A stretch of DNA of 64,000 nt from Salarchaeum japonicum (GTDB taxonomy: Archaea > Halobacteriota > Halobacteria > Halobacteriales > Halobacteriaceae), in the NCBI RefSeq assembly GCF_020614395.1, contig NZ_CP085324.1, positions 563,564-627,563 on the forward strand, given 5' to 3'. The position numbers were made by a program, and so were the translations under genes. This document shows, in pieces, positions 2,482-5,998 of this stretch. Numbering within the stretch: position 1 is the stretch's first letter; every line of letters begins with the position of its first letter. The notes below the pieces were generated by a model. That model saw nothing but the letters and a program-made list of their open reading frames with translations. It had not been told where the DNA came from and ran no database searches.

Positions 2482-2904
2482 TTACGGCTCCGCGAAGTAC
2501 TCCTCCTCCGTCACGCCCACGACCTCGTCCGCGTTCGCAACCCCGCGCAGGTCGTCGAGGATGGCGTCGTGGTCGTCCGTCGCCTCCCAGTACAACACCA
2601 CGTCGTACGTTCCCTCCCGCATCAACTGCTGGCACTCCCAGACGAACTCGTCGCCGTCGATGGTGCGGCCGTGATGCTGGTTCACGCCGAACTCGTCGCT
2701 GTCGTTCCCCGAGTACACGTACGTGTCCTCGTCCGTGACGTGCGCGGAGATGACGTCGCCCGCGTCGAGCGTGAGCTGGTGCATCATGCTCTCCTCCTCG
2801 CCGTCCAGGCTCGTGTGCACGACCGCGCCGTGCAACTCGATGTCGCCGGGCTTGAGGAGTTCGACCGCGCGCCGGTAGAGATCCGCGTTCAGCGTCTCCG
2901 TCAT
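2482..2904 (-). CDS. Haloarchaeal conserved protein (probably DUF5778)
   Basis: 140 acidic residues, soluble, no membrane segment or known catalytic motif. The core reads LLKPGDIELHGAVVHTSL, EESMMHQLTLDAGDVISAHV and HDAILDDLRGVANADEVV. I recall this pattern as the haloarchaeal family DUF5778, but that is from memory. The frame opens upstream at 2940; MTETLNADLYRRAV at 2904 is preferred because the upstream stretch is Arg-rich and unlike the rest. The same strand as the heme operon 38 bases downstream, though that operon has its own promoter-like box. Function unknown. Confidence 0.75.
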   Translation of the reverse strand: MTETLNADLYRRAVELLKPGDIELHGAVVHTSLDGEEESMMHQLTLDAGDVISAHVTDEDTYVYSGNDSDEFGVNQHHGRTIDGDEFVWECQQLMREGTYDVVLYWEATDDHDAILDDLRGVANADEVVGVTEEEYFAEP

Positions 2905-2995: not shown

Positions 2996-3895
2996 ATGCG
3001 AGACTGGCTTCGCCGCCGACTCCGCGCGGGCTACGAGCGACTGCTCTCCCGCGAGGTGGACGGCGCGCCCGAACACGTCGCCGTCATCCAGGACGGCAAC
3101 CGCCGGTACGCCCGCGAACGCGGCGGCGAAGCCACCGACGGCTACCAGGCCGGCGCGCGCACCACCGAGGAGATGCTGGACTGGTGCGCCGACCTCGGCG
3201 TCGAAGAACTCACCCTCTACGCGTTCTCCACGGAGAACTTCGAACGCCCCGAAGAACAACAGGAACACCTCTTCGACCTCCTCACCGAGAAACTCCACGA
3301 GTTCGCGGACGCCGACCGCGTCCACGACCGCCGCGTCCGCGTGCGCGCCATCGGCGAAACCGACCGCCTCCCCCCGCGCGTCCAGCACGCCATCGCGTAC
3401 GCCGACCGCCGCACCCGCGGATACGACGGCTTCACGCTCAACGTCGCGCTCGCGTACGGCGGCCGCGCGGAACTCCTCGGTGCCGCCCGCGACATCGCCC
3501 ACGCCGTCCAGTCCGACGACCTCACCCCCGACGACGTGACCGTGGACGAAATCCAGGCACGCCTCCACCCCGCCCGCGTCCGCGACGTCGACCTCATCAT
3601 CCGCACCGGCGGCGACGAACGCACCTCCAACTTCCTCCCCTGGCACGCCAACGGCAGTGAAGCCGCCGTCTACTTCTGCGCGCCCTACTGGCCCGAATTC
3701 TCCAAAATCGACTTCCTCCGCGGCATCCGCACCTACCAGGCCCGCGAGAAATCCTGGCAACGCGCCCGCCTCGAACGCGCCCTCGCCCTCGTCCGCGCGT
3801 TCGGCAGCGCCGAACTCGACGACGCCCGCGCCATCATCGACCGCCTCCGCACCCACACCACCATCGACCTCCCCGACGAAGAACCCGCGGACTAA
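2996..3895 (+). CDS. uppS: Cis-prenyltransferase (UppS/DHDDS type), catalytic subunit
   Basis: 299 residues. It extends an allylic diphosphate with isopentenyl diphosphate in cis to give the long polyprenyl (dolichyl) diphosphate used for N-glycosylation. Catalytic signature HVAVIQDGNRRYARERG near residue 28 (D33, N35, R36-R37); also LYAFSTENF, RAIGETDRLP and RTGGDERTSNFLPW. The C-terminal RRFG motif of homomeric enzymes is missing: RGIRTYQAREKSWQRARLE continues into a different tail. The start is ATG 2996, directly preceded by an in-frame GTG. A small hairpin (CACCC tc GGGTG) sits at the start. The homologue at 4008-4616 faces it and shows the opposite losses. Confidence 0.9.
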   Translation: MRDWLRRRLRAGYERLLSREVDGAPEHVAVIQDGNRRYARERGGEATDGYQAGARTTEEMLDWCADLGVEELTLYAFSTENFERPEEQQEHLFDLLTEKLHEFADADRVHDRRVRVRAIGETDRLPPRVQHAIAYADRRTRGYDGFTLNVALAYGGRAELLGAARDIAHAVQSDDLTPDDVTVDEIQARLHPARVRDVDLIIRTGGDERTSNFLPWHANGSEAAVYFCAPYWPEFSKIDFLRGIRTYQAREKSWQRARLERALALVRAFGSAELDDARAIIDRLRTHTTIDLPDEEPAD

Positions 3896-3942
3896 CCCCC
3901 CTTCCTTCGCCCGACTTTGCCCAAGCCCTCCGGCCTTGCTGA

Positions 3943-4020
3943 GTTTGGACGGGTCGCTGACGCTCACCGTCCAAACTACTGTGAATCGGAGATTCACTGA
4001 ATTCGGTCTAGCGACCGAAT
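3943..4020. terminator. Three perfect hairpins between convergent cis-prenyltransferase genes
   Basis: Three back-to-back perfect inverted repeats fill the gap. The first has 10-bp arms GTTTGGACGG/CCGTCCAAAC (3943-3952 and 3967-3976). The second has 7-bp arms GTGAATC/GATTCAC (3981-3987 and 3991-3997). The third has 8-bp arms ATTCGGTC/GACCGAAT (4001-4008 and 4013-4020) and contains the TAG stop of the minus-strand gene. CGGAGATTC (3987-3995) can pair instead with GAATCTCCG (4017-4025), so hairpins two and three could be exchanged for an alternative fold. Likely a bidirectional terminator or 3' processing structure. There is no T-tract of the usual archaeal kind. Confidence 0.6.
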
Positions 4021-4616
4021 CTCCGCTGGCGGTTCTGGTAATCCCTGATGGCGCGGAGGTAGTCGCGCTTCCGGAAGTCCCGCCAGTTCACGTCGGTGAA
4101 GTAGAGTTCGGCGTAGACGGACTGCCATATCATGAAGTCGCTGAGGCGTTCCGCGCCGGTTTTGACGACGAGGTCGGGTTCGTCGGGGAAGACGAGGCGG
4201 GATTCGATTTCGGATTCGTCCACGTCGTCCGGGCTGAGGTCGCCGGATTCGACGGATTCGGCGATGGACTGGACGGCGTCCGCGAACTCGTGCTTCCCGC
4301 CGAGGCCGACGGAAATCTGGATGGGTGTGTCGGCGCGTTCGGTGTCGCCGGGGCCGCGGACGGCGACCTCGCGGGGTGCGTCGATGGCGGCGAGTTCGCG
4401 TTCGAGCGTCGGGACGGCGGCCTCGTCGAGCACGCTCACGTACACGGTGACGCGCTGTGCGCCGTAGTCGAACGCCCAGTCGAAGGCGTCGCTGAGCGTG
4501 TCGTACGCGCCCTGTTCGAGGAGGTCGCGTTCGGTGATGACGAGCGCGACGTGGTCGGGAGTCGGCGCGTCGTCGCGGCGCACGCGGAGCGCGAGGTAGT
4601 GGTCGTAGACGCCCAC
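4008..4616 (-). CDS. Degenerate cis-prenyltransferase homologue, NgBR/Nus1-like subunit
   Basis: 202 residues of the UppS fold. Where the enzyme at 2996-3895 has HVAVIQDGNRRY, this protein has HVALVITERDLL (about residues 22-33), so the catalytic Asp and the Asn-Arg-Arg are gone. The second signature is also altered (KTGAERLSDFMIWQ for RTGGDERTSNFLPW). Yet the C-terminal RRFG (198-201), the RxG motif needed for activity, is intact after DYLRAIRDYQNRQ. Eukaryotic DHDDS/NgBR and the reported heteromeric enzyme of Methanosarcina divide these motifs the same way. I infer a non-catalytic partner subunit; a separate short-chain enzyme is unlikely without the DGN motif. Confidence 0.8.
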   Translation of the reverse strand: MGVYDHYLALRVRRDDAPTPDHVALVITERDLLEQGAYDTLSDAFDWAFDYGAQRVTVYVSVLDEAAVPTLERELAAIDAPREVAVRGPGDTERADTPIQISVGLGGKHEFADAVQSIAESVESGDLSPDDVDESEIESRLVFPDEPDLVVKTGAERLSDFMIWQSVYAELYFTDVNWRDFRKRDYLRAIRDYQNRQRRFGR

Positions 4617-4699: not shown

Positions 4700-5998
4700 G
4701 TGACTCTCCCGCTCCGGCGGGCGGCGGCGTACGCGCTCTGTAGTCTCCTCGCGCTCACCGCCCCCTTCCTCGGCCGGTTCGCCGCCGCGCCGTTCGTCGT
4801 GGTGGCGGCCGCGGCCTACGTCGTCCGGGACGGCCCCGTCTTCCGACTGTTCGCGTTCCCGTGGGACGAACACGCGGAACGCTTGCGGACGCTCGTCGGG
4901 TTCGCGAGCGCGAGCGCCGGCCTCGCCGTCCTCCTGCCCGCCGTCGACCTGCCGGTCGTCGTGTACGTCGCGACCGTGCTCGCGCTGGCGTTCGGCGACC
5001 TCGGCTACCGCGCCGTCCTCGACTACCGGGAGTCCCGCGTGTACGCGACCGCGGGGTTCGCGGTGCTCGGCACGCTCGCCGCCTTCCTCGGCCAGCTCGC
5101 CGTCGTCGAGGCGGGCGCGACCGCCGCCGCACCGCCGACGTATGCCTTCTTCGCCACCACCGCCGCGTTGCTCGCCGCGCTCCTCCGCGCCGTCTTCACC
5201 GAACGCGACTCCCCGCTCCTCCTCGCCGTCATCGCCCTCCTCCTCTGGCTGTTCTGGGCGGTCGCCGACCCCGTCTCGTGGACGCGCATCGCCGTCGCGC
5301 TCGCGCTCACCGTCGGGTTCGGCGCGCTCTCCTACGTCGTCGGCTCCACGTCCATCCCCGGCCTCCTCACCGGCGTCTTCCTCGGATTGCTCGCCGTCGT
5401 CCTCGGCGGCTACGGCTGGTTCGCCGTCCTCATCACGTTCTTCGGCGTCGGCAGTCTCGCCACCAAGTACCGCTACGACGAGAAGAAGAACCGGGGGGTC
5501 GCCGAGGAGAACGAGGGCGCGCGCGGGAGCGGGAACGTCCTCGGGAACTCCGCCGCCGCGCTCGTCGCGCTCCTCCTGTTCGCGTCCGCCGACCACCTCC
5601 CCTGGGGCGCGCACGTCTTCCTCTACGCCTACCTCGGTAGCGTCGCCACCGCGCTCGCCGACACGCTGTCGAGCGAAATCGGCGGTCTCTACGGGCCGCC
5701 CCGCCTCCTCACCACGCTCGAACCCGTCGAACCCGGAACCGACGGCGGCGTCACCTGGCAGGGCGAACTCGCCGGCGTCGCGGGCGCACTCCTCATCGCG
5801 CTCATCGCGCTCGCCGCCTTCTCCCTTCCCGCGCTCGGCGTCGCGCTCGTCGTCGCCGGCGGCCTCGTCGGCATGACCGTGGACAGCCTCGTCGGCGCGA
5901 CCCTCGAAGGCGGCCTGTTCGGAAACCAGTCCGTGAACTTCACCGCCACGGCGTCCGGCGGCGTCGCCGCCGCCCTCCTCGCCGTCGCACTCCTCTAA
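4700..5998 (+). CDS. DUF92 family membrane protein with N-terminal membrane extension
   Basis: 432 residues, almost entirely hydrophobic with roughly a dozen membrane segments. The C-terminal part, from about residue 205 (STSIPGLLTGVFLGLL, FFGVGSLATKYRYDEKK, GNVLGNSAAALVA, SVATALADTLSSEIG, GMTVDSLVGATLEGG), is the DUF92/TMEM19/VTE6 domain. Plant VTE6 acts on phytyl phosphate, and related proteins are taken to be CTP-dependent polyprenyl-phosphate kinases. The first 200 residues add about six membrane helices of unknown role. The start is GTG 4700. It is divergent from the NgBR-like gene, which fits a shared role in isoprenoid-alcohol phosphates (inference). Confidence 0.8.
   Translation: MTLPLRRAAAYALCSLLALTAPFLGRFAAAPFVVVAAAAYVVRDGPVFRLFAFPWDEHAERLRTLVGFASASAGLAVLLPAVDLPVVVYVATVLALAFGDLGYRAVLDYRESRVYATAGFAVLGTLAAFLGQLAVVEAGATAAAPPTYAFFATTAALLAALLRAVFTERDSPLLLAVIALLLWLFWAVADPVSWTRIAVALALTVGFGALSYVVGSTSIPGLLTGVFLGLLAVVLGGYGWFAVLITFFGVGSLATKYRYDEKKNRGVAEENEGARGSGNVLGNSAAALVALLLFASADHLPWGAHVFLYAYLGSVATALADTLSSEIGGLYGPPRLLTTLEPVEPGTDGGVTWQGELAGVAGALLIALIALAAFSLPALGVALVVAGGLVGMTVDSLVGATLEGGLFGNQSVNFTATASGGVAAALLAVALL

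Follow-up and report, generated by a model that had tools for sequence, protein, structure and literature searches.

Do two neighbouring cis-prenyltransferase genes of Salarchaeum japonicum, each of which holds a part of the motifs of a homomeric enzyme, encode two enzymes or two halves of one? The genes lie in a stretch of 64,000 nucleotides that was analysed as a whole (denoted the window). The first encodes a putative catalytic, DHDDS-like cis-prenyltransferase of 299 residues (subunit A; 2996..3895, plus strand), which matched PF01255 over profile positions 1-217 (E 4.5e-68). The second encodes a putative non-catalytic, NgBR-like homologue of 202 residues (subunit B; 4008..4616, minus strand). 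Its match to PF01255 covered profile positions 113-219 only (E 4.2e-28) and is confined to the C-terminal half of the protein; the N-terminal half was unrecognised by Pfam. The two genes are convergent, with their ends 112 bases apart, and A and B are the sole PF01255 proteins in the genome (2.34 Mb, 99% complete).

AlphaFold2 monomer models obtained with the phylum alignment as input reached a pLDDT of 88 and a pTM of 0.81 for A, and a pLDDT of 86 and a pTM of 0.83 for B. The model of A superimposed on UppS with a TM score of 0.90 over ∼225 residues (Foldseek), and its structural alignment with DHDDS extended over ∼298 columns. B also adopted the cis-prenyltransferase fold in its model, with a larger deviation (TMq 0.62-0.74), so that by PF01255 match and fold both proteins belong to the superfamily. 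In the predicted structure of A, helices are formed by residues 237-268 and 271-287. The last core helix continues through the RXG position; after it come a second helix and a tail, which replace the RXG end (3704..3892, plus strand).

The initial annotation had described the plus-strand protein as carrying QDGNRR without a C-terminal RRFG, and the minus-strand protein as having another sequence in place of the catalytic motif while keeping RRFG at residues 198-201. Both descriptions proved correct at this locus, and they hold across the 47 A and 46 B sequences that we aligned from the phylum Halobacteriota. The catalytic motif QDGNRR of A (residues 32-37; 3089..3106, plus strand) is found as part of HVAVIQDGNRRYA together with the remaining substrate-binding set; YQAREKSWQRAR occupies the homomeric RRFG position, and the chain has no RXG end. 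In B, HVALVITERDLL stands at the site of HVAVIQDGNRR in A, and DHVALVITERDLLEQG (residues 21-36; 4509..4556, minus strand) replaces the DGN catalytic motif in the alignment. The C-terminal end of B is IRDYQNRQRRFGR, in which RRFG (4014..4025, minus strand) is followed by one further residue before the chain ends.

Residues D26, G27, N28, R30, S71, N74, R77, R194, R200 and S202 (E. coli numbering) were present at 100% in the 47 A sequences; in the numbering of A itself, D33, G34, N35, R36 and R37 were invariant, and the homomeric tail was missing phylum-wide. D26, N28, R30, S71, N74 and R77 were replaced or lost in nearly all of the 46 B sequences, which kept R-R-x-G at 97-100%, with R196, R198 and G201 of B invariant and R199 nearly so. 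The B chain ended one residue after the RXG glycine in 48 of 48 sequences (47 by automatic count, plus one ending in GG). The tail of A measured 3-65 residues across the phylum and did not form an RXG end; a stray R-A-G was seen near the end of a single A, which terminates in RIRAGE. The C-terminal tail of A was short or absent in several Halobacteriota outside the haloarchaea, and the second-helix tail is therefore not the defining change. As a control, 78 single-chain archaeal enzymes carried both motifs in one chain. The pairing of DGN with RXG in the same chain that characterizes homomeric UppS was thus not found here, the motifs being divided between a subunit with DGN and without RXG (the 47 A sequences) and a homologue without the catalytic residues and with RXG (the 46 B sequences). 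A complementary loss of the E213 equivalent was also considered and dropped: the glutamate is present at 100% in B, yet at 91% in A, where it lies beside a two-residue insertion. Collectively, the alignments argue that the motif split between A and B is not due to chance.

The loss of catalytic residues from B, together with an N-terminal half that is invisible to Pfam, would also be expected of a decaying duplicate of A that has no function in this enzyme. We consider such decay extremely improbable, because B forms a single clade retained throughout the phylum and preserves 18 invariant columns, 17 of which fall within its C-terminal half.

The distribution of the two genes points to a functional pair. 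PF01255 was present in 393 of 393 Halobacteriales genomes, 380 of which had exactly two matches. Assignment of the matches to A or B in 99 of these genomes, comprising at least one for each of 87 genera and those with unusual counts, revealed at least one A and at least one B in 98; the exception, G153, a draft of 120 contigs, had B alone. None of the typed haloarchaea therefore had an RXG-less A without B; the absence of B from many such genomes was what the initial annotation had named as evidence against the pair. Outside Halobacteriales, A and B co-occurred, as in heteromeric systems, in 71 of 75 Halobacteriota genomes; of the remaining four, G466 (89% complete) had A only and three members of one family had neither. 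A and B lay within 12 kb of each other in 78 of the typed haloarchaeal genomes, always convergently (78/78), and apart in the other 21, all of which, save G153, retained both genes. The genes were linked in 24 of the 71 other Halobacteriota, again always convergently (24/24). The convergent arrangement was probably inherited from one ancestor and hence counts as one event, but a very old one. At five non-haloarchaeal loci (L029, L030, L035, L038 and L039), A and B share a few to ∼50 bases where the 3' ends of their open frames overlap. Ten of the 11 typed haloarchaeal genomes with surplus A had no extra B, comparable to the situation in yeast, where Rer2 and Srt1 share Nus1. One haloarchaeon (genome G001, 477800-480800; L011) had a third, divergent PF01255 homologue, with GLIPDGHRRYADERG and the end RRNEGR, in a 622-residue open frame.

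The closest precedent is the heteromer of Methanosarcina mazei, a member of the same phylum with the same two-paralogue set. According to a later article, it consists of MM_0618 and MM_1083, two of three paralogues, makes C45-50 products (Emi et al. 2019, cited in PMC8131916), and is assigned there to the synthesis of glycosyl carrier lipid (PMC8131916). Heteromery is therefore the expected behaviour in Halobacteriota. A and B are presumably orthologous to its two subunits, as judged from the phylum-wide clades, which include a genome with the MM_0014 orthologue. M. mazei differs from S. japonicum by its third paralogue, MM_0014, which has no counterpart in the S. japonicum genome.

MM_0014 is the reason why the loss of RXG alone is, by analogy, insufficient proof of partner dependence: this protein, whose chain has TLGG at its end and no RXG, is nevertheless active (PMC8131916). 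Together with the weak activity of DHDDS homodimers (PMC7573591), it raises the alternative that A acts alone as an RXG-less homodimer, with B serving as a separate regulatory or moonlighting protein. The MM_0014/MA1831-type enzymes share with A the missing RXG, but they end in TLGG, act without a partner, occur sporadically and occupy another branch of the tree. Accordingly, the MM_0014 orthologue L057, which G412 carries in addition to A and B, fell outside the A clade, and A did not group with this type. Haloarchaeal A, moreover, bears a C-terminal extension, and B retains precisely the RXG tail with its exact chain end. The pair co-occurs throughout the phylum, as a moonlighting protein need not. 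A solitary A is therefore quite unlikely in our judgement.

The human DHDDS/NgBR complex, with which yeast Rer2/Nus1 is grouped as the closest eukaryotic two-subunit system, provides a structural framework for the pair. As in A and B, one subunit has DGNRR and no RXG, and its partner has no catalytic aspartate and, in the human enzyme, has RXG. There, R290, L291, G292 and the terminal K293 of NgBR organise the active site of DHDDS; the tail of NgBR reaches across the subunit interface, where the backbone of its leucine and glycine holds the S2 phosphate and the terminal residue contacts R37 and R85 of DHDDS (PMC7573591). The chain end of B, one residue beyond the RXG glycine, has the same geometry as R290-K293 of NgBR, and the residues of A that would be expected to receive this tail, D33, N81, R84 and R36, are invariant. 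A helical C-terminal extension is found on both DHDDS and A, and the two helices modelled for A recall the helix-turn-helix of DHDDS, which is said to be incompatible with homodimer tail contacts (PMC7573591). The systems differ in that the human products are longer (C85-100) and in that the N-terminal membrane region of NgBR is missing from B, whose fold is preceded by ∼20 mostly polar residues. Homomeric UppS of E. coli, Asgard archaea and Thermoproteota shares fold and chemistry with the enzyme proposed here, but has both motifs in one chain.

Taken together, these observations make it highly probable that A and B together form one heteromeric cis-prenyltransferase, to which each contributes a subunit; we judge this the best explanation as a whole, including the tail, product, pathway and duplication history set out below. 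It supports, at the level of sequence, the heteromer proposed in the initial annotation. Complex, product and pathway would be as follows. A would bind and condense the allylic diphosphate and IPP through DGNRR, R84, R203, R209 and S211. B, a catalytically dead paralogue, would use its conserved C-terminal half to dimerise with A. By analogy with NgBR, its RRFG tail would act in trans, crossing the interface into the active site of A and supplying the part that A has lost. The product would be a polyprenyl diphosphate, the precursor of a dolichyl-phosphate-type carrier for AglB-dependent N-glycosylation. A and B would descend from one single-chain archaeal enzyme whose gene was duplicated, the two copies then losing complementary parts before Halobacteriota radiated.

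We infer the role in N-glycosylation from knowledge of the pathway and from the AglB/STT3 gene of S. japonicum, of which the genome has one. STT3 was found in the ten tested Halobacteriota genomes with A and/or B and was missing in the three without any cis-prenyltransferase. The latter (G399, G408 and G417, family f18), which are 86-91% complete and matched neither PF01255 nor STT3, may have lost lipid-carrier synthesis together with N-glycosylation, or may simply be incomplete; the sample of three is small. Five Asgard genomes without a PF01255 match nonetheless had STT3, and the correlation between cis-prenyltransferase and STT3 is therefore not general and may reflect incomplete genomes.

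Several features flank or separate the two genes. Three consecutive hairpins were predicted between A and B (3942..4023), the third of which extends into the end of B. They are more stable than shuffled sequence (z -2.9) and probably serve two-way transcription termination. The large hairpin occurred once in the genome, which argues against a repeat element, and an Rfam search of these hairpins matched no family. A small protein divergent from A (2482-2904, minus strand) is conserved in the vicinity of either gene across most of the sampled haloarchaea; NCBIfam gave no match for it. On the other side, B is divergent from a gene for a DUF92/TIGR00297 membrane protein (4700..5998, plus strand; PF01940, E 8.9e-57). 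A DUF92 gene stood beside B in this orientation in 19 of 20 haloarchaea and in 8 of 20 other Halobacteriota. It adjoined B in eight genomes in which A lies elsewhere, and in haloarchaea it accompanies B more constantly than A does. We take DUF92 to be COG1836, the family of plant VTE6. In an article that treats VTE6 and COG1836, VTE6 is a putative phytyl-phosphate kinase (PMC9782597), and a geranylgeranyl-phosphate kinase activity is cited there as described in archaea (Ohnuma 1996, cited in PMC9782597). A search of solved structures for DUF92 found none. On the basis of its conserved linkage, the DUF92 protein is a candidate prenyl-phosphate kinase, and its linkage to the non-catalytic subunit suggests that it may help to supply or recycle prenyl diphosphates.

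The likeness to DHDDS/NgBR raises the question of whether the archaeal and eukaryotic splits have one origin. The outgroups sampled were Asgard archaea, Thermoproteota and a small DPANN set; Methanobacteriota and Thermoplasmatota lay outside the sample. PF01255 matched in 84 of 89 Asgard and 91 of 91 Thermoproteota genomes, nearly always as one protein, which in Asgard archaea was a full-length chain extending to the RXG position; the small DPANN sample resembled this pattern, and the motifs were read directly in ∼80 of the outgroup sequences. In a maximum-likelihood tree built without the two motif regions, A and B were each monophyletic, with support of 97/94 and 98/99, respectively. Because deep families of Halobacteriota are represented in both clades, the duplication and split predate the radiation of the phylum. 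Of the E. coli UppS, DHDDS and NgBR reference sequences in our alignments, that of UppS agrees with the stretches shown in the PDB, and those of DHDDS and NgBR are taken as approximate. With these sequences, human DHDDS was placed among the single-chain enzymes of Asgard archaea and Thermoproteota, to which it is 46% identical, compared with 37% to the nearest A. NgBR sat on a very long branch whose position was uncertain, and a clade of B and NgBR was not recovered.

A single origin, with A the orthologue of DHDDS and B that of NgBR/Nus1, would account for the same motif split in both groups, and the B profile does align to NgBR end to end. However, that profile gave 119 bits for E. coli UppS, compared with 47 bits for NgBR, and NgBR scored alike against B and single-chain Asgard enzymes. 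The sequence LVITE, common to human NgBR and haloarchaeal B, could be read as a further sign of common descent; it is confined to haloarchaeal B, with FMISEKD, VIAEDD and others as counterparts in other Halobacteriota, and given the closer relation of the B profile to UppS we set it aside as probably a chance likeness. AU tests, which used 204 columns only, rejected none of four joint clades, among them A with DHDDS (p 0.257) and B with NgBR (p 0.28). The case for separate origins accordingly rests mainly on the single-chain form kept in Asgard archaea and Thermoproteota, beside which DHDDS falls in both identity and tree. On these sequence comparisons a shared origin is unlikely, and Halobacteriota most likely reached the DHDDS/NgBR-like division of labour independently of eukaryotes. 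Of the parallels drawn in the initial annotation, that with Methanosarcina thus has a real precedent (PMC8131916), and the likeness to NgBR is functional, a relation by descent being unsupported.

A further split may exist in Thermoproteota. The draft assembly G607, alone in this respect, encodes two PF01255 chains on two contigs: L212 keeps DGNRR and ends in KRILQKKQGMEA, and L213 shows IIADENLN at the DGN site and terminates in RRFGR. Both are 56-60% identical to single-chain enzymes of Thermoproteota and Asgard archaea, above their identity to A or B, and AU tests excluded kinship neither with A (0.139) nor with B (0.262). From its motifs and identities, the G607 pair looks like a further, separate split. 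We lean slightly towards a broader reading, in which eukaryotes, the ancestor of Halobacteriota and the G607 lineage each came to the DHDDS/NgBR-type split independently, so that it arose three times or more. Single-chain homodimers would then be prone to this complementary loss, and in Halobacteriota gene order would link the dead subunit to a DUF92 prenyl-phosphate kinase, which may supply or recycle its substrate.

The heteromeric cis-prenyltransferase as a kind of enzyme is already known from M. mazei; what is added here is its distribution across the phylum, the apparently separate origin of its split from that of eukaryotes, and the divergent DUF92 gene, a candidate prenyl-phosphate kinase gene whose position beside B is deeply conserved. 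Mutations of DHDDS and NUS1 cause disease and make the human split medically important, and the split is usually described as a feature of eukaryotes that goes with long-chain synthesis. A separate split in archaea, where the product reported for M. mazei is shorter (C45-50), would argue that it is not simply bound to long chains or to the ER. B would be named polyprenyl diphosphate synthase by homology, though it lacks the catalytic residues, which calls for caution in automatic annotation. The conserved linkage of DUF92 names a candidate for the archaeal geranylgeranyl-phosphate kinase activity, and since haloarchaea are genetically tractable, the roles of the subunits are open to test by deletion.
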